Shown here: one piece after another, positions 12,939-20,510 of the stretch
How the letters are laid out: the number at the start of each line of letters is the position of its first letter
Position numbering within the stretch: the first letter of the stretch is position 1
NCBI RefSeq assembly: GCF_013409625.1
Contig: NZ_JACCBF010000001.1
Coordinates: 868,001-932,000, forward strand
Reading direction: 5' to 3'
DNA: 64,000 nt
DNA from: Nocardioides kongjuensis
GTDB taxonomy: Bacteria > Actinomycetota > Actinomycetes > Propionibacteriales > Nocardioidaceae
Position numbers and translations under genes: made by a program
Notes under the pieces: generated by a model
What the model saw: the letters and a program-made list of their open reading frames with translations, nothing else
The model's database searches: none
Told to the model about the DNA's origin: nothing

Positions 12939-13418
12939 TCAGCCGTTGAGTGCCCGGAACTCCGTCCAGATCGCGGCGCACTCCTCGCGCCCCTCGGCCA
13001 GGTGCACCAGGTCCATCGTGCTGGTGTCGCTGCCGTCGAGGTAGCGGCGTAGGTGCGTGTCCGAGAAGCCGTTGCTCGCCGCGTCGTCGCGCGTCGAGGC
13101 GTAGTAGCACTCGGTGATGCCGGCCCACATCATCACGGCCACGCACATCGGGCACGGCTCGCAGGTGGCGTACATGACCATGCCCGACAGGTCGAGCGTG
13201 CCGAGCCTGCGGCAGGCCTCGCGCACGGCGACCATCTCGGCGTGACCCGAGGGGTCGGTGTCCTTCAGGACCGTGTTGCCGACGCTGACGACGACCTCGC
13301 CGTCGTGGACGAGCGTGGCGCCGAACGGGCCGCCCGTGCCGGCTCGCATGCCCTCGAGGGTGATGTCGGCGGCCTGGGCGAACCAGGCGTCGACCTGCTC
13401 GGGAGTCGGAGTCGTCAT
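12939..13418 (-). CDS. Nucleoside/guanine deaminase (CMP/dCMP deaminase fold)
   Basis: 159 residues. The zinc site of the cytidine-deaminase superfamily is complete: HAE in DPSGHAEMVAVREA, and CEPCPMC. GGPFGATLVHDG and the C-terminal part with TRDDAASNGFSD resemble bacterial guanine deaminase (GuaD), which turns guanine into xanthine and ammonia; other amino-purine or amino-pyrimidine substrates remain possible. The ATG at 13418 overlaps the permease stop by 4 bases. It is the last gene of the DUF2877-ankyrin-FdrA-DUF1116-permease operon, which suggests it acts on the imported compound. Confidence 0.85.
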   Translation of the reverse strand: MTTPTPEQVDAWFAQAADITLEGMRAGTGGPFGATLVHDGEVVVSVGNTVLKDTDPSGHAEMVAVREACRRLGTLDLSGMVMYATCEPCPMCVAVMMWAGITECYYASTRDDAASNGFSDTHLRRYLDGSDTSTMDLVHLAEGREECAAIWTEFRALNG

Positions 13419-14896
13419 GAGGTCGCCTCTCGCGTGCTGAGGATCGTCAGTGTGTAGCCGACGAAGCCGATGAGCAGGCCGGAGAAGAACGCCAGGTTCT
13501 TGACGTCGACGAGGAAGTCGATCTCCTCGAGCCCGGGGAGCGTGCCGGCCATCGTGAACACGAAGCTGACCACCAGCACGCCGATGGCACGCCAGTTGTA
13601 GGCCACCTGTGGCGACCTCGGGTCCGCGTAGATGTCGTCGAGGTCGACGGTGCGCCTGCGCTCCACGAAGTACGACGCCAGCATGATCCCGGCGATCGGG
13701 CCGAACATCGAGCCGATGAACGAGTAGAACAGGAACAGCGCGTCGGTCGCCTCGAGGAACTTCCACGGCAGGAACAACGTGCCCACCACCGCGGTGATGA
13801 TCGCGCCCTTGCGCACCGTGAACCGCGAGGGCCACTCGGCGGTGAGCTGCAGGCCCGCCGGCAGCATGTTGCCGAACACGCAGAACGCGGTCATGCCGAC
13901 GTTCATCGACAAGATCAGCAGCACCACGACGAACGGGTTGCCGATCGAGTTGATCGCGTCCACGAAGATCGTCGGCCGGTTGACGTCGAAGTCGCCGTGC
14001 GTGCTCACGCTGAGCGAGGCCATGAAGGAGACCGTCACCAGCGCGAACAGCAGGTAGGACGCGATGACGCCGACCGGGAAGCCGAGGGCCGGAGCCTTCG
14101 TGGAGGTCGCGTTGCGGGTGTAGTCGCCGGTGTTGACGATCGGGCCGGCCCAGTTGGACACCAGCGCCGCGACGCAGCCGACGAACACCAGCGGCGTCAC
14201 CTCGGACTGCACGGGGTGCAGCTCGAAGACGTCGGAGAAGCTGCCGACGTTCCTGACGGCCAGCACGACGCCGACGACGATCAGGACGTAGACCGCCGGG
14301 TTCGCCCAGGTGCTGAACGTCCCGAGGAACCTCTGCCCCGCGAGGAACAGTGCCACCGTGATCGCCCACATCAGCAGGTACGAGATCGCCGTCGGGACGG
14401 CGAGCCCGAGGACCGAGCCGTCGAGGTCGGCGTACCCGGGGAAGACCTTGTCCATCACGACGTCCAGCGCCTGTGCGCTGGAGACCGTCGACAGGCCGAA
14501 GAACACGATGCCCGCCACCGTGCCGCGGATCGCGGCCGGGATCAGCGCGCCCCGGGAGCCGAACGAGTCGCGCAGCAGCATCGCGAACGGTACGCCGTAC
14601 CGCGCCGAGGCCTGGCCGTTGAGGACGTAGCCGGCCGACACGATGACCGCGCTGAGCAGGATCGCGGCCACCACCTGCCTCGCCGAGAGGCCGAGCGCGA
14701 AGAAGCCGACGACCGTGAAGTAGGACAAGATGTTGTGGATCGGTCCCATCCACACGGTGACGAACTGCGGCGTCGACCAGGTCCGGTCCTGCGGACGGAC
14801 CGGGAGGACGTCCTCGGCGTAGCCGCGGGCGGCGTACGTCGCGACCGCCTCGGCTCCCGGGTCGACCAGGTCGTGGAGGCTAGAGGTCGGGGACAT
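13415..14896 (-). CDS. NCS1-family purine/pyrimidine permease
   Basis: A 493-residue membrane protein with about 12 transmembrane helices, matching NCS1 nucleobase:cation symporters (cytosine permease/CodB-like). Typical positions include TVWMGPIHNILSYFTVVGF at helix 1, AMLLRDSFGSRGA, and VSNWAGPIVNTGDYTRNAT. The family imports cytosine, purines, allantoin or hydantoins. ATG at 14896, 14 bases after the DUF1116 stop. Its position beside a deaminase and the FdrA-type carbamoyl-transfer proteins makes a nitrogen-rich ring compound or ureide the probable substrate (inference). Confidence 0.88.
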   Translation of the reverse strand: MSPTSSLHDLVDPGAEAVATYAARGYAEDVLPVRPQDRTWSTPQFVTVWMGPIHNILSYFTVVGFFALGLSARQVVAAILLSAVIVSAGYVLNGQASARYGVPFAMLLRDSFGSRGALIPAAIRGTVAGIVFFGLSTVSSAQALDVVMDKVFPGYADLDGSVLGLAVPTAISYLLMWAITVALFLAGQRFLGTFSTWANPAVYVLIVVGVVLAVRNVGSFSDVFELHPVQSEVTPLVFVGCVAALVSNWAGPIVNTGDYTRNATSTKAPALGFPVGVIASYLLFALVTVSFMASLSVSTHGDFDVNRPTIFVDAINSIGNPFVVVLLILSMNVGMTAFCVFGNMLPAGLQLTAEWPSRFTVRKGAIITAVVGTLFLPWKFLEATDALFLFYSFIGSMFGPIAGIMLASYFVERRRTVDLDDIYADPRSPQVAYNWRAIGVLVVSFVFTMAGTLPGLEEIDFLVDVKNLAFFSGLLIGFVGYTLTILSTREATS

Positions 14897-14910
14897 GCCA
14901 CCCCGTCCCC

Positions 14911-16335
14911 TCAGGCACCGATCGTCTCGGCGAGCGTGACGACGGCCTGCTGGAAGGCCTCCAGCGGCGGGTGCACGATGCCGGCGCCGATCATGCCGAT
15001 GCCCGGGTCCTTGTGGGCGATGGCGGTGTTGATCAGCGGCAGGATGCCGGTCTCGATGACCTTGCGGACGTCGATGCCGGTCGGCACGCCCATGAAGTCC
15101 AGCGCCGGGATGGTGACGTTGGGGTTGTTGGTCGTGGTGATGGCGTTCATCGTCCTCGAGTAGCCCATCGCCTCCTGCACCGTGCCGCCGACGAGGGCGA
15201 CGATCGCGGGGGCTGCTGCCATCGCGAAGCCGCCGATGCCGAAGGTCTCGGTGATGGCCGAGTCGCCCATGTCGAGGCCGGAGTCGGCGGGGGTGTAGCC
15301 GGCGAACATCGGGCCGACGACCTGCTGCGCGGGACCGGTGAACCACTGGTCGCCGGTGCCCGAGACGCGGATGCCGAAGTCGACGCCGTTGCGGCACATG
15401 GCCGTGACGACCGTCGAGCTCTCGATGCCCGCAGCGGCGTCCATCGCGGCCTTGGCGGTGACCATCCAGGTCGGCCCGGAGAAGTAGTCCGAGGACGCGA
15501 CGAAGTCGAACACCTCGCGCTTCTCCCTGGTCGTGAAGTCGGTCTCGAGGATGTACGGCGCGAGCGCCTGGATCAGCAGCGTCGTACCGGCCACGTTGCG
15601 GTTGTGCGCCTCGTCGCCCATGTGCAGCGCCTGCGAGAGCAGCAGGCGCAGGTCGAGTCCACCCTCGTTGAGCTCCATCGCGCCGGCCAGGATCGGGCCG
15701 AGGACGTCGCGCATCCAGGTGAGGCGGTCGATGACCGACTGGTCGTTGGCGCCGAACCGCAGGATCTTGGACAGCTGCTCGGACAGGTTCGTGTAGGCGG
15801 TGTTCCCGTGGGTGCGGTTGGTGACCTTGTGGACCCACATGCTGGCGCTGGTGACACCGGCCATCGAGCCGACCGACTGGTGCTCGTGACAGGGGGAGAA
15901 GGTGATCTCGCCCGAGCCCGCCAGCTCGCCTGCCTCGTCGAGGTCCTTGGCGAGGCCCTCGAAGACCAGAGCGCCGGTGACCGCGCCCTTCATCGGGCCC
16001 GACATCCGCTCCCAGCTGATCGGGGGACCGGCGTGCAGGATGGTCGTCCTGGTCATCCCGGGCACGGTGTCGATCGCCTGGCCGAAGCCCTCGAGGAAGG
16101 GCTGGGCGGCGAGGACGCGGCTGACGGCCTCCTCGTTGGCGGCGTCGATCCTCTCGGCCAGCTCGGGACGCTCGAGGCGGCCGAGGGCCGCGATGATCTC
16201 CGGGTCGCCGCCGCCCGGCGGGGTCCAGTCCATCCGGACCGGCGCCACGCCCTGGGCGGTGAGGTCCTCGGCGAACATGTCGAGACCGAGGTTGACCGGC
16301 TTGAGGCCGGTCGAGAACAGGCTGTTGATGCTCAT
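14911..16335 (-). CDS. DUF1116 protein (YlbE/AllG-like)
   Basis: 474 residues of the DUF1116 family, the family of E. coli YlbE. YlbE (AllG), with FdrA (AllF) and YlbF (AllH), has been reported to form oxamic transcarbamylase, which releases carbamoyl phosphate at the end of anaerobic allantoin breakdown. Recognisable stretches are AGPPISWERMSGPMKGAV, FSPCHEHQSVGSMAG and NNPNVTIPALDFMGVPTGID. The start overlaps the FdrA stop by one base (TGATG). All three presumed subunits plus carbamate kinase occur here, so the same chemistry is likely, though the natural substrate may differ. Confidence 0.85.
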   Translation of the reverse strand: MSINSLFSTGLKPVNLGLDMFAEDLTAQGVAPVRMDWTPPGGGDPEIIAALGRLERPELAERIDAANEEAVSRVLAAQPFLEGFGQAIDTVPGMTRTTILHAGPPISWERMSGPMKGAVTGALVFEGLAKDLDEAGELAGSGEITFSPCHEHQSVGSMAGVTSASMWVHKVTNRTHGNTAYTNLSEQLSKILRFGANDQSVIDRLTWMRDVLGPILAGAMELNEGGLDLRLLLSQALHMGDEAHNRNVAGTTLLIQALAPYILETDFTTREKREVFDFVASSDYFSGPTWMVTAKAAMDAAAGIESSTVVTAMCRNGVDFGIRVSGTGDQWFTGPAQQVVGPMFAGYTPADSGLDMGDSAITETFGIGGFAMAAAPAIVALVGGTVQEAMGYSRTMNAITTTNNPNVTIPALDFMGVPTGIDVRKVIETGILPLINTAIAHKDPGIGMIGAGIVHPPLEAFQQAVVTLAETIGA

Positions 16336-17882
16336 CAGTGGTCACCCTTCGCAACGAATTCGCGGGCCAGCAGGCCGAGGTTGGTGGAGGAGGAGGCGAT
16401 GGTCACGCCGGCGGCCTCGAGCTGCGCCACCTGGCCGGCGATGGCCGGGGCGTCGAGGTCGGTGCCGAGGACGTAGCCGAGGATCTCCAGGTGCTGGCCC
16501 CGTGCGGCAGCCCTGGCCTTGGCCTCCTCGATGGCGGGGATGGTCACGCCGACCGGGTCCTCGTGGGAGCCGAAGCCGAGGATGAAGTCCATCGCGATGA
16601 CGCCGACCTCCGGGTCGTCGGCCTCCTGGAGGAGGCGCTGCAGGCGCAGCGACGGGTCGATCATCGGGTGCGGGCGGCCGTCGGTGAAGTCGTCGTCGCC
16701 CATGTCGAGGAAGGTGTGCTCCTTCGACGGGTCGGTGGCGCCGAGGACGTACGACGGGTCCTTCTGGATGTTCGAGTAGACGTTGTCGAACGTCGCGAGC
16801 GCCGCGAACATCGCCTCGTCGCACAGGGTGCCGCCGCAGAACAGGCCGCGGACGTACCTCTGCTCGGGAGCCAGCTTGGCGCGGACCTCCTCGATCAGCG
16901 CGATGTTGAGGGCGTGCAGGTCCAGGGTGGACTCGTCGACGCCGGTGGCGAGGACGGCGGCCAGTGCGGCGGGCTTGGTGCCCGACACCAGCTGCACGTT
17001 CGGGTGGCCCGACGCGGTGCGCGACGAGCCGAGGAAGCAGACCACGGCCGGCTTGCCGGTCGCGCCGAGGACACCGAGCACCCTCTCGGCGACGTCCTCC
17101 GCCGGGGGCTTGGAGACGACCACGATGACCTCGGTCTCCGGGTCGGCCGCGAGGGCCTCGATGCCGTCGAGCATCATCAGGCCGCCGACCTCGGCCGACA
17201 GGTCGCGACCGCCGGTGCCGATCAGCTGCGAGACGCCGCCACCGAAGTCGTGCACCCGGACCGAGATCTCCTGGCTGCCGGTGCCCGACGCGCCGACGAT
17301 GCCGATCGAGCCACGGCGCACGGCGTTCGAGAACGCCAGGCCGGTGCCGTTGATGATCGCCGTGCCGCAGTCGGGACCCATCAGCAGCAGCCCCTTCTCG
17401 TGGGCCAGCGTCTTGAGCTCGATCTCGTCCTCGACCGACACGTTGTCGGAGAAGATCATCACGTGCCTGCCGGCGACGAGCGCCTTGCGGGCCTCGCGGG
17501 CCGCGAAGGCGCCGTTGACGGAGATCAGCACGAGGTTGCTGTCCGGCACCTCGGAGAACGCGCCGTCGAGGGTGCGGTAGCGGACCTCGGTGGCGCCCTC
17601 GGCGGGGCTGTTCTTGCGGGCGAGGATGTCGTTGACGGCCTGGACCGCGTCCTCGATGAGGTCGTCTGCGGCGTCGATGACGATCATCAGGTCGCTCGGC
17701 CTCGCGGCGTCGATGGCGGGGTCGTCGACGCCGACGTTGGCGAGGACCTCCTTGTTCATCGGCGTGGCCATGCCCAGCAGGGCCTGGGTGACGCCCTCGA
17801 CGGCGTTGGCCCTGGTGCTCATCGACATGAGCGAGACCGAGTCGAGGTAGGTGTTCTTGCGGATGTCGATGTACCTGGTCAT
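16335..17882 (-). CDS. fdrA: FdrA family protein (AllF-like carbamoyltransferase subunit)
   Basis: 515 residues, the FdrA length. The family is related to succinyl-CoA synthetase alpha/beta subunits: residues about 190-230 (GPDCGTAIINGTGLAFSNAV, then GIVGASGTGSQE) and the GGRDLS loop form the nucleotide/phosphohistidine-like fold. The E. coli homologue is AllF of the oxamic transcarbamylase complex. ATG at 17882 with an AAGGGA ribosome site; the ankyrin gene ends 12 bases upstream. It is the central gene of the operon and with DUF1116 and DUF2877 probably transfers a carbamoyl group to phosphate, feeding carbamate kinase. Confidence 0.88.
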   Translation of the reverse strand: MTRYIDIRKNTYLDSVSLMSMSTRANAVEGVTQALLGMATPMNKEVLANVGVDDPAIDAARPSDLMIVIDAADDLIEDAVQAVNDILARKNSPAEGATEVRYRTLDGAFSEVPDSNLVLISVNGAFAAREARKALVAGRHVMIFSDNVSVEDEIELKTLAHEKGLLLMGPDCGTAIINGTGLAFSNAVRRGSIGIVGASGTGSQEISVRVHDFGGGVSQLIGTGGRDLSAEVGGLMMLDGIEALAADPETEVIVVVSKPPAEDVAERVLGVLGATGKPAVVCFLGSSRTASGHPNVQLVSGTKPAALAAVLATGVDESTLDLHALNIALIEEVRAKLAPEQRYVRGLFCGGTLCDEAMFAALATFDNVYSNIQKDPSYVLGATDPSKEHTFLDMGDDDFTDGRPHPMIDPSLRLQRLLQEADDPEVGVIAMDFILGFGSHEDPVGVTIPAIEEAKARAAARGQHLEILGYVLGTDLDAPAIAGQVAQLEAAGVTIASSSTNLGLLAREFVAKGDH

Positions 17883-17894
17883 CTCAGGTCCCTT

Positions 17895-18497
17895 TCAGAG
17901 GTAGCGCTCGATCACGGCGGCGAGGTCGTCGAACCCGCGCTTGCGCGCCAGGTCGAGGGGCGTGACACCCCACTCGTCCGTCATGCCGGGCTTCGCGCCG
18001 TGCTCGAGCAGCAGCTCCGCGGTCTGCTGGCGGACCGGGCCGCCGTCGCCGAGGATGATCGTCTCGATCAGCGCGGTCCACCCGAGCGTGTTGGTCAGGT
18101 TGACGTTGATGTCGGTGTTCTCGAGCAGGTAGCGGACGATCTCGAGGTGGCCCTTCTCGGCGGCCGGGGTGAGGCCGTTGCCGCCGAAGCGGGTGAGGCG
18201 CTTCAGGTCGGTGCCCGCCTCGACCATGATCTTCACGAGCTCGAGGTCGTCGTGGATGCAGCCGTGGATGAACGGGTTGAAGCAGGTCTGGTCCTGCGCG
18301 TCGATGTCGACGCCCTCGCCGATCAGGAAGCGCACCACGTCGTGGTGCCCGGCCCGGGCCGCCGCCAGGACGGCACTCGCCTCCTCCCGGTCCACGGCGT
18401 CCTTGTCGGCGCCGTCGGCGAGGGCGGCGCGCACGCCGTCCAGGTCGCCGGCCGCCGCGGCGGCGAGGTACCGCTCGTCGGCTGAGGGTGTGGTCAC
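17895..18497 (-). CDS. Ankyrin-repeat protein within the fdrA operon
   Basis: 200 residues consisting almost wholly of about five ankyrin repeats, with signatures such as SAVLAAARAGHHDVVRFLIG, GLTPAAEKGHLEIVRYLLEN, GWTALIETIILGD and GVTPLDLARKRGFDDLAAVI. There is no signal peptide or membrane segment, so it is cytoplasmic. The GTG start at 18497 overlaps the DUF2877 stop by 4 bases and the stop lies 12 bases before fdrA. It is embedded between two presumed subunits of one enzyme, so a scaffold, regulator or extra subunit role is likely; no such role is established in the E. coli system. Confidence 0.88.
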   Translation of the reverse strand: MTTPSADERYLAAAAAGDLDGVRAALADGADKDAVDREEASAVLAAARAGHHDVVRFLIGEGVDIDAQDQTCFNPFIHGCIHDDLELVKIMVEAGTDLKRLTRFGGNGLTPAAEKGHLEIVRYLLENTDINVNLTNTLGWTALIETIILGDGGPVRQQTAELLLEHGAKPGMTDEWGVTPLDLARKRGFDDLAAVIERYL

Positions 18498-19438
18498 GAG
18501 ATCTCCTTCGAGTGGGTGGGATCCGCGAGGCGGTCCGCCTCGCGCAGGTCTGCCTCGAGCTCGAGCCCGAGGCGGAAGCCGGTGAGGATGTCGGCCCCCG
18601 AGGTGTGGCCGACGGCCCGCACCCGCAGCACGGCGTCGACCAGGGCGGGGGTGGTGCCGGCCGCGCTGAGCGCCGAGACGAGGACGTGGATCCGCTGGCG
18701 GCCGCGCCCGGCGAGCGCCTCGGTCAGGGTGGCCGCGCTGACCGCGGTGGTGCGCTCCTCCAGGGGAGCACCACCGAGGACCCCCTCGGCCAGGGCCGGC
18801 CGGACCCGCTCGAGCAGCATCCCGCCGGCCGCGGCGAGCACGGCGAGGCCGGTCAGCACGTCGTCGCCGCTGGGGGTCAGCCCGGAGCCGAGGCCGACCA
18901 GGCGGGCCGCGGCGGCGGCGACCGCGTCCGGGTCGCCGCCACGGACGGCGTCGGCCAGGACCGTCGTGCGGCGGGCGAGCTCCTCGGCGCTGAGGACGTC
19001 GAACGGAGTGAGGTCGGCCGGCGGCAGCAGGTGCCGCTCGATGGTGGCGGCCGCCGCCCGGAGGTCCCCGGGGGCCAGCACGGCCAGGGCGGTCGGGTCG
19101 GCGGGGGAGGGCTGCCAGCGCGCGGCACCGGCAAGGACGACGGTCGTGCCGTCGTACTCGTGGGTCAGGGCGGGACCGAACCGGATCGGGTCGTCGAGGT
19201 GCCAGTCGATCCGCGCCCAGTCGGCGGCGGCGATCCGGACGGTGCGCGGCGCGTCGTCGAGCTCGTCGCTCGACAGGCAGCAGAGCAGGCCGTCGGGCGT
19301 GCGCACGTTGACGACCTTCGCGTGCACGGAGTGGACGGCGCCACTGCGCCCGTCGGTGGGGAGCCCGTCCGCGAGCAGGGCGTCGACGGAGACGGCGTCG
19401 ACCAGCCGTACCGCGTGCTGTCCGGCAGTCGCCACCAC
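18494..19438 (-). CDS. DUF2877 protein (YlbF/AllH-like)
   Basis: 314 residues. The C-terminal half has the DUF2877 hallmark LVGLGSGLTPSGDDVLTGLA and GRGRQRIHVLVSAL. E. coli YlbF (AllH) of this family is one of the three oxamic transcarbamylase subunits. The start is taken as the GTG at 19438 because AAGGAG lies 6 bases upstream; a GTG at 19435 and an ATG at 19491 are alternatives. It is the first gene of the minus-strand operon and faces carbamate kinase across a 124-base regulatory gap with two identical palindromes. Confidence 0.82.
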   Translation of the reverse strand: MVATAGQHAVRLVDAVSVDALLADGLPTDGRSGAVHSVHAKVVNVRTPDGLLCCLSSDELDDAPRTVRIAAADWARIDWHLDDPIRFGPALTHEYDGTTVVLAGAARWQPSPADPTALAVLAPGDLRAAAATIERHLLPPADLTPFDVLSAEELARRTTVLADAVRGGDPDAVAAAAARLVGLGSGLTPSGDDVLTGLAVLAAAGGMLLERVRPALAEGVLGGAPLEERTTAVSAATLTEALAGRGRQRIHVLVSALSAAGTTPALVDAVLRVRAVGHTSGADILTGFRLGLELEADLREADRLADPTHSKEIS

Positions 19439-19501
19439 CCGGGACTCCTTCGTCTGGGCTTCGTGAGGGGTTCTGTGAGCGGGCTCTCCCATCTCCAGGT
19501 G

Positions 19502-19533
19502 ATGGTATACCATTCTTTGAAATGGTATACCAG
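19502..19533. promoter_or_regulatory. Two TGGTATACCA palindromic operators
   Basis: ATGGTATACCAT (19502-19513) and ATGGTATACCAG (19522-19533) are two copies of the perfect palindrome TGGTATACCA, centred exactly 20 bases (about two helix turns) apart and placed in the gap between the divergent DUF2877 and carbamate kinase starts. GTATAC-centred palindromes are typical of GntR/FadR-type repressors. No GntR gene is found in the window, so the regulator lies elsewhere. Confidence 0.75.
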
Positions 19534-19562
19534 CGTGTACCCCATCGAGCAGGAGGAAGTTC

Positions 19563-20510
19563 ATGCGAGTCGTAGTGGCACTGGGCGGCAACGCCCTCGC
19601 GCGTCGGGGCGAGCCGATGACGGCGGAGTACCTGCGGGCCAACGTCCGCTCCACGTGCCAGGCGCTCGCCGAGCTGGCCCGCACCACCGAGCTGGTCATC
19701 ACCCACGGCAACGGACCGCAGGTCGGCCTGCTCGCCCTGCAGAACCTGGCCTACCAGGACGTCGCGGCGTACCCGCTCGACATCCTCGGCGCCGAGACCC
19801 AGGGCATGATCGGCTACGTCGTGCAGCAGGAGCTGTCCAACGCCGTCAAGGGCGAGCGCGAGGTCGCCGGCATCATCACGACCACCGTCGTCTCCGAGGA
19901 CGACCCGGCCTTCGACCGGCCCACCAAGCTGATCGGCCCGCAGTACTCCGCGCACGACGCCGCGGAGGCCGCGGCCGAGTACCGCTGGACCATCGCCAAG
20001 GACGGCAACGCCTTCCGCCGCGTCGTCCCGTCGCCGCAGCCCCTCGCCATCGTCCAGGCGCCGCTCATCCGGCGCCTGCTCGAGGGCGGCACGCTGTGCG
20101 TGTGCGTCGGTGGCGGCGGCGTGCCGGTCCGCCTGGACCGCAAGGGCCGCCACGTCGGCGTCCAGGCCGTCGTCGACAAGGACCAGGCCAGCGCCGCGCT
20201 CGCTGCCGAGATCGGTGCCGACGTGCTCATCATGCTGACCGACGGCGACTACGTCAGCGAGAACTGGGGCACCCCGCAGCAGCGTGACATCGTCACCGCC
20301 TCGGCCGACGCGATCGCGGAGCTGGCCTTCGCCGAGGGCTCGATGCAGCCCAAGGTGGACGCCGCGATCCGGGTCGCCCGTGCCGGCGGCCGGGTCCTGA
20401 TCGGTCCGCTCGACCGGCTCGACGACCTCCTCGCCCGCAAGGTCGGCACCGAGATCGTGCCGACCCTCGACGAGGGCATCGTCTTCCTGGAGCGCGAGCC
20501 CGCCGCCTGA
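19563..20510 (+). CDS. arcC: Carbamate kinase
   Basis: 315 residues, standard length. Amino acid kinase motifs: VVVALGGNALARRGEP at the N-terminus, VITHGNGPQVGLLALQN, CVCVGGGGVPV and VVDKDQASAALAAEIGADVL. It converts carbamoyl phosphate plus ADP to ATP, carbon dioxide and ammonia in the cytoplasm. ATG at 19563 has a strong AGGAGGAA site. It is divergent from the DUF2877-FdrA operon and shares its two palindromic operators, which fits use of carbamoyl phosphate made by that complex. No arginine deiminase or ornithine carbamoyltransferase gene is nearby. Confidence 0.93.
   Translation: MRVVVALGGNALARRGEPMTAEYLRANVRSTCQALAELARTTELVITHGNGPQVGLLALQNLAYQDVAAYPLDILGAETQGMIGYVVQQELSNAVKGEREVAGIITTTVVSEDDPAFDRPTKLIGPQYSAHDAAEAAAEYRWTIAKDGNAFRRVVPSPQPLAIVQAPLIRRLLEGGTLCVCVGGGGVPVRLDRKGRHVGVQAVVDKDQASAALAAEIGADVLIMLTDGDYVSENWGTPQQRDIVTASADAIAELAFAEGSMQPKVDAAIRVARAGGRVLIGPLDRLDDLLARKVGTEIVPTLDEGIVFLEREPAA

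Follow-up and report, generated by a model that had tools for sequence, protein, structure and literature searches.

The window analyzed here, a 64-kb stretch of the 5.67-Mb genome of Nocardioides kongjuensis, carries a gene cluster in which all three subunit families of the Escherichia coli oxamic transcarbamylase (AllF, AllG, and AllH) are encoded together with a permease, a deaminase, an ankyrin-repeat protein, and a carbamate kinase. We consider it probable, on balance, that this cluster is an actinobacterial Yah-type system that combines import, deamination, acylurea phosphorolysis, and ATP recovery. E. coli K-12 has two such gene sets, fdrA-ylbE-ylbF-ybcF (allFGHK, in the allantoin cluster) and yahDEFGHIJ (b0318-b0324); judged by sequence identities and trees, the window AllF and AllG are of the Yah type, orthologous to YahF and YahG and not to E. 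coli AllF and AllG. The features of the cluster are as follows:

12939..13418, minus strand: guanine-deaminase-like enzyme of the CDA fold, 159 amino acids (PF00383, 75.6 bits)
13415..14896, minus strand: NCS1 permease, 493 amino acids (PF02133, 235.8 bits)
14911..16335, minus strand: AllG/DUF1116 subunit, YahG orthologue by sequence, 474 amino acids (PF06545, 298.5 bits)
16335..17882, minus strand: AllF/FdrA subunit, YahF orthologue by sequence, 515 amino acids (PF00549, 108.5 bits; PF02629, 41.1 bits)
17895..18497, minus strand: ankyrin-repeat protein, YahD orthologue by sequence, 200 amino acids (Ank_2, 110.6 bits)
18494..19438, minus strand: AllH/DUF2877 subunit, 314 amino acids (PF11392, 80.6 bits, scored on a longer 339-amino-acid reading)
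19503..19512: predicted operator copy 1, a TGGTATACCA palindrome (12-bp ATGGTATACCAT), kept in relatives
19523..19532: predicted operator copy 2, TGGTATACCA, 20 bp from copy 1 and likewise kept in relatives
19563..20510, plus strand: carbamate kinase, 315 amino acids, divergent from the six-gene operon (PF00696, 80.7 bits)

The minus-strand genes appear to form a single six-gene operon, with the carbamate kinase gene divergent from it, because neighboring genes overlap by 4 bases (AllH/ankyrin and NCS1/deaminase) or by 1 base (AllF/AllG), and the remaining two gaps measure 12 and 14 bases. An earlier sequence-only reading of this DNA had reported such coupled starts and stops, and all seven components that it named lie where it placed them, as confirmed by Pfam/NCBIfam matches; the six genes on its list are real, but it overlooked the sixth gene of the operon, which encodes the ankyrin protein. 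The carbamate kinase start is preceded by AGGAGG. For AllH, the start is most likely the GTG at 19438, which was chosen by inference and is preceded by GAAGGAG; with this start, the operator pair would sit between the AllH and carbamate kinase genes.

By BLASTP, the window AllG is 68% identical to YahG vs. 48% to E. coli AllG, and the window AllF is 61% identical to YahF vs. 39% to E. coli AllF. The window AllH matches YahE at 30% over 283 residues, and E. coli AllH at 42% over only 115 residues. In the AllG tree (102 rows, quick method), the window protein and YahG fall within one 56-row clade (SH-aLRT 100), with E. coli AllG outside; the AllF tree (82 rows, rooted on E. coli AllF) recovers the same grouping, with 55 tips and no additional ones, at a clade support of only 0.67. 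Plain orthology to E. coli allFGH is ruled out by these identities and trees. The AllFGH-like identity given in the sequence-only reading thus gives way to a Yah-type paralogue, while its doubt that this set and E. coli AllFGH share a substrate was sound.

Within the AllG tree, the neighbors of E. coli AllG are L037 and L038, which both belong to genomes of the same order as the window; close to L037 lie allantoinase-like and AllC-like genes. The AllG proteins nearest to that of the window come from Nocardioides sp. SLBN-35 (97%) and Pimelobacter simplex (96%). Yah-type AllG (at least 68% identity) is rare in the window's order, occurring in 10 of 293 genomes; an AllG match of any kind at E 1e-50 occurs in 86 of the 293, mostly at ~50% identity. 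The window AllF exceeds the PRK06091 cut-off (479.5 bits; cut-off 433), and the PDB relatives are 3clq for AllG (E 1e-199) and 3dmy for AllF (E 9.4e-85). When aligned with SucD (succinyl-CoA synthetase alpha), AllF is gapped around the phosphohistidine, His246. The AlphaFold2 model of AllH (pLDDT 94.1) consists of N-terminal strands followed by a helical domain, and the invariant residues make up GxGxGLTPxGDD; at E 0.001 or better, no fold in the PDB matched the model, which gave no clue to mechanism.

Gene content was compared between 56 Yah-type loci and 32 other AllG loci by six-frame search, using bit thresholds of our own choosing. The Yah-type loci encode AllF (55 of 56), AllH (49), carbamate kinase (44), and the ankyrin protein (43 vs. 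1 of the 32 other loci, namely L038), as well as a permease of family c7 (22), the deaminase (17), the NCS1 permease (15), a CodB-like permease (15), and a YahJ-family amidohydrolase (6). The AllH figure is an undercount, because the AllH of L050 was found by Pfam yet missed by the six-frame search. A linked AtzD-family ring-opening gene was found in none of the 56 by this search. Among the 32 other AllG loci, carbamate kinase occurs in 8, an AtzD-family gene in 7, and the deaminase in none. The core gene set recurs in several phyla, which goes beyond chance. Across these loci, the core consists of AllF, AllG, AllH, carbamate kinase, and usually the ankyrin protein, with exchangeable parts for import and deamination. 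The deaminase is present in 14 of the 15 NCS1-bearing Yah-type loci, the contig of the fifteenth (L047) ending 357 bases past the permease; it also occurs without NCS1 in three Firmicutes loci (L068, L069, and L072). The flanking genes nearest to the window cluster encode an F420-type oxidoreductase and a spermidine-synthase-like protein; of the loci mapped, only those of the closest Nocardioides/Pimelobacter relatives have these genes in the same position.

Two further observations concern this comparison. The c7 family is represented by a 537-amino-acid protein, membrane-type by eye, at L059:11446-13059, and no Pfam or NCBIfam model matched the one member scanned. The AtzD/TrzD-family matches near AllG are in L105, L107, L109, L112, L115, L117, and L038, and L109 (Melaminivora) carries a YahJ-family gene and carbamate kinase as well.

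The ankyrin protein, which is 49% identical to YahD over 196 amino acids (BLASTP), is probably a binding partner of the AllF-AllG-AllH complex, because its gene neighbors the core genes and its motif has been conserved across the span from E. coli to Nocardioides. Its conserved residues include R103, E114-K115-G116, N136, G139-W140, and E145, and relatives at ~60% identity occur in Avibacterium, Mannheimia, and a Cardiobacteriaceae bacterium. In nine of the ten non-actinobacterial Yah-type loci (L068, L069, L071-L073, L075, L077, L078, and L080), the 200-amino-acid form is replaced by longer ankyrin proteins (~370-412 amino acids); TPR repeats accompany the ankyrin repeats in the L068 protein (the one scanned), and the motif NRFG, EKG, N-LGW, ILG-GG is mostly retained in the three long proteins inspected. 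At L149:4734-6544 (G321), the genes for a YahD-like ankyrin protein (34%) and a YahJ-like amidohydrolase (38%) have a 4-base overlap; this pair adjoins an AtzD-family gene, yet the AllG of that locus (L038) falls with E. coli AllG in the tree.

The NCS1 permease is 35% identical to E. coli AllW (BLASTP) and is nearest to two allantoin-permease models, at 372.7 bits (PRK11375, cut-off 620) and 345.7 bits (cut-off 800), below the cut-off in both cases. The best PDB sequence match of the deaminase is the guanine deaminase 1wkq (E 1.3e-30), and the protein carries the zinc motif (HAE and PCxxC) expected for guanine deaminase (GuaD); its sequence shows nearness to guanine deaminase only and is not decisive for substrate. 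The carbamate kinase scores 404.6 bits against NCBIfam PRK12354, above the cut-off of 361. The window cluster has no YahJ-family amidohydrolase; a member of that family is encoded at a distance of ~640 kb, next to another copy of the operator word.

For the Yah-type system, we infer the following reactions. The permease would import a small nitrogen-rich ring compound or ureide, and the deaminase would convert an amidine-type C-NH2 to C=O, which would give an acylurea (R-CO-NH-CO-NH2) directly or after further steps. The three-subunit AllF-AllG-AllH enzyme, to which the ankyrin partner probably binds, would use phosphate to release carbamoyl phosphate and an amide, and carbamate kinase would turn the carbamoyl phosphate into ATP, CO2, and NH3. 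In outline, this nitrogen-scavenging set of a soil-type actinobacterium would probably gain ammonia and ATP from a urea-like compound taken up by the cell. In loci with a linked deaminase, whether of the CDA fold as in the window or of the AtzC/CodA type as in YahJ, the amidine-type carbon would become the urea carbonyl. The E. coli AllF-AllG-AllH enzyme interconverts oxalurate plus phosphate and oxamate plus carbamoyl phosphate, and was assayed in the oxamate direction (PMC11326118). In generalized form, this reaction is acylurea phosphorolysis, which the Yah type would carry out on another ureido compound. Ring opening of barbiturate and of cyanurate yields acylureas, and the AtzD-family genes near AllG in other clades fit the scheme for that reason. 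The single pathway proposed in the sequence-only reading (import, deamination, phosphorolytic carbamoyl transfer, and ATP recovery) fits the evidence as a scheme, but the NCS1 permease and the deaminase proved to be optional parts of Yah-type loci.

The operator region shared by the operon and the carbamate kinase gene, which the sequence-only reading had also noted, is borne out by the two exact TGGTATACCA palindromes at 19503 and 19523. Allowing up to one mismatch, the 64 kb contain no further match, against an expectation of 0.12 sites in all. At least one non-coding copy (up to one mismatch) lies near the cluster in 40 of 46 actinobacterial Yah-type loci, with an exact copy in 16 and at least two copies in 25; 22 neighboring copy pairs in these loci are exactly 20 bp apart, and three of the six loci that lack the word are short or cut contigs. 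The genome as a whole has five exact copies of the word, spread over three places (expected 0.115, from window dinucleotides), the window cluster being the first. In the second place (L127, ~427 kb off), the word separates a GntR gene from a gene for a CodB-like permease, and in the third (L128, ~640 kb off), it lies between another GntR gene and a sodium symporter gene, which is followed by the YahJ-family amidohydrolase gene. The L127 GntR protein is 62-64% identical to GntR proteins encoded beside the Yah-type loci L044, L045, and L065, and the L127 CodB-like permease is 81-82% identical to one encoded beside AllG in two Arthrobacter. Of the 56 Yah-type loci, 28 contain GntR-family genes belonging to one cluster, but that of the window has none beside it. 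Among six other genomes, the GntR/CodB place recurs in G291 and G354, and the GntR/YahJ-family place in G354 and G060. The divergent unit is probably under GntR control. No riboswitch that would name the ligand was found in the window, nor in the 34 of the other 87 loci that were scanned at the gathering threshold, where only tRNA and rRNA matched.

Several observations weigh against this reading of the cluster or of its regulation. The carbamate kinase is nearer to AllK (51%) than to YahI (38%) by BLASTP; 12 of the 56 Yah-type loci have no carbamate kinase gene, and 13 have no ankyrin gene (three of the latter being short or cut contigs). Permease and deaminase vary between loci and therefore do not define one substrate. 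The operator word lies outside coding sequence in none of the 10 non-actinobacterial Yah-type loci scanned; G346 and G299 have the exact word at the Yah site only, and the second site in G180 precedes an unrelated-looking reductase-type gene. A reversed-word control gave one match in G299 and none in the other six genomes. The word resembles the type bound by many FCD-type GntR proteins, and L128 has its own GntR protein, which is only 34-37% identical to its best matches beside Yah-type loci. In the literature on yah genes, which was surveyed mainly by listing, neither an activity of a Yah protein nor a functional study of yahD-J turned up. A word search found no words beginning with "yah" in the E. 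coli allantoin papers PMC11326118, PMC9843812, and PMC8550087, nor in PMC12535856, and PMC12625717 treats yahF as an older name for allF.

The genome background bears on the choice of substrate. A second AllFGH set is encoded elsewhere in the genome (L003:7917-17145 and L006:142-12336; G000:C1 ~5438.9-5460.3 kb), whose AllG and AllH came out of a family search and whose AtzD/TrzD-family ring-opening enzyme, amidase, and molybdenum hydroxylase were recognized by family models; a carbamate kinase, a PucR regulator, a xanthine/uracil-type permease, a cytidine deaminase, and a thymidine phosphorylase were named by eye. This second set resembles a pathway of oxidative pyrimidine degradation that would cleave ureidomalonate to carbamoyl phosphate instead of hydrolyzing it; against this reading, its AtzD-family protein exceeds the cut-off for cyanuric acid amidohydrolase (470 vs. 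360). With a second AllFGH set in a pyrimidine/ring-opening cluster, the window set probably serves something else.

One alternative is a biuret-class route, in which a guanylurea-like compound would be deaminated to biuret (or biuret or triuret would be imported), and the Yah-type AllFGH would then release carbamoyl phosphate and urea. The best PDB match of YahJ-family enzymes is AtzC, with cytosine deaminase next, and the proteobacterial Yah-type loci L075, L077, and L078 contain isochorismatase-type and ABC transporter genes (nucleoside-type by eye). The hydrolase of L078 matches the RutB and BiuH models, but far below their cut-offs (155.7 of 377.95 and 143.3 of 370, respectively). AtzD-family genes occur near AllG in the seven other AllG loci named above, Melaminivora included, but are linked to none of the Yah-type loci. 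Nitrifier contigs described in PMC12625717 carry biuH, allFGHK, gntR, and codB in varying combinations; that paper interprets allFGHK as oxalurate degradation, and a biuret-class substrate would be an equal reading of these contigs. Overall, we regard this route as rather unlikely for the window cluster.

Unlikelier still is a plain oxalurate (oxamic) transcarbamylase that, like E. coli allFGHK, would complete allantoin breakdown, the allantoin steps themselves being encoded in another part of the genome. The statement of the sequence-only reading that no allantoinase or uricase gene is present holds for the window as that reading saw it, but such genes do exist outside it: at L129:4546-11804 (G000:C1 ~716.5-723.8 kb), genes for uricase (Pfam), allantoinase (TIGR03178), and an AllE-like cupin form one run, with malate synthase, OHCU decarboxylase, and HIU hydrolase genes identified by eye. 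Also in favor of an oxalurate role, the permease is allantoin-permease-like and the carbamate kinase is closer to AllK than to YahI; against it stand the position of AllF and AllG outside the E. coli clade and the apparent malate synthase gene in the AllE-like run, which suggests a glyoxylate route. The oxalurate-forming enzyme AllD was matched in none of the 10 Yah-type genomes, that of the window included (E. coli control positive), and allantoinase was above cut-off in only three of the 10. An oxalurate role is therefore possible but disfavored, since the genome, despite its uricase and allantoinase genes, has no detected AllD.

Equally improbable is a purine or pyrimidine base route, in which a true guanine or cytosine deaminase would deliver its product to the second AllFGH cluster: the deaminase is indeed nearest to guanine deaminase in the PDB, and that cluster has the AtzD-family enzyme and molybdenum hydroxylase as well as, by eye, cytidine deaminase and thymidine phosphorylase, but none of the 56 Yah-type loci has a linked AtzD-family ring-opening gene, and two AllFGH sets used side by side would duplicate each other.

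Extending the acylurea phosphorolysis proposed for the window cluster, we tentatively suggest, with somewhat less than even confidence, that the Yah-type enzyme represents a second acylurea phosphorylase, distinct from the first and acting on a non-oxalurate substrate, with the ankyrin protein as a fourth subunit, fed by deaminases of unrelated folds (CDA and AtzC/CodA type), and with one GntR operator joining dispersed pathway parts. The comparison ties the orphan E. coli cluster yahD-J to related loci in actinobacteria, bacilli, and proteobacteria, which probably conserve energy as carbamoyl phosphate. The candidate regulon and the partner genes narrow the search for a substrate, and an FdrA/DUF1116/DUF2877 set should not by default be assigned to oxalurate degradation.

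Among known systems, E. coli allFGHK (PMC11326118) has in common with the window cluster the three subunit families and carbamate kinase, whereas the window AllF and AllG (39 and 48% identity) belong to a separate clade, the window adds an ankyrin gene, and allantoin genes adjoin the E. coli set but not the window set. The AtzD-linked AllFG loci and the second AllFGH set share AllF/AllG with the window, and several of them have YahJ-family amidohydrolase and carbamate kinase genes nearby; they differ in having a ring-opening AtzD/TrzD-family gene and, among the loci compared by six-frame search, no ankyrin gene, except for L038, which has both. The amidohydrolases AtzC and CodA are the best PDB matches of E. 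coli YahJ and of the L128 enzyme, and PMC7549933 lists E. coli YahJ as a predicted Tat substrate. The closest E. coli counterpart is yahDEFGHIJ, which provides the nearest E. coli relatives of the ankyrin, DUF2877, FdrA, and DUF1116 proteins (49, 30, 61, and 68% identity, respectively), and which likewise includes a carbamate-kinase-like protein and a deaminase-type amidohydrolase. By contrast with that set, the window cluster has a CDA-fold deaminase and an NCS1 permease in place of YahJ, a divergent carbamate kinase gene whose product is nearer to AllK, a swapped order of the ankyrin and AllH genes, and a predicted GntR-type operator pair.

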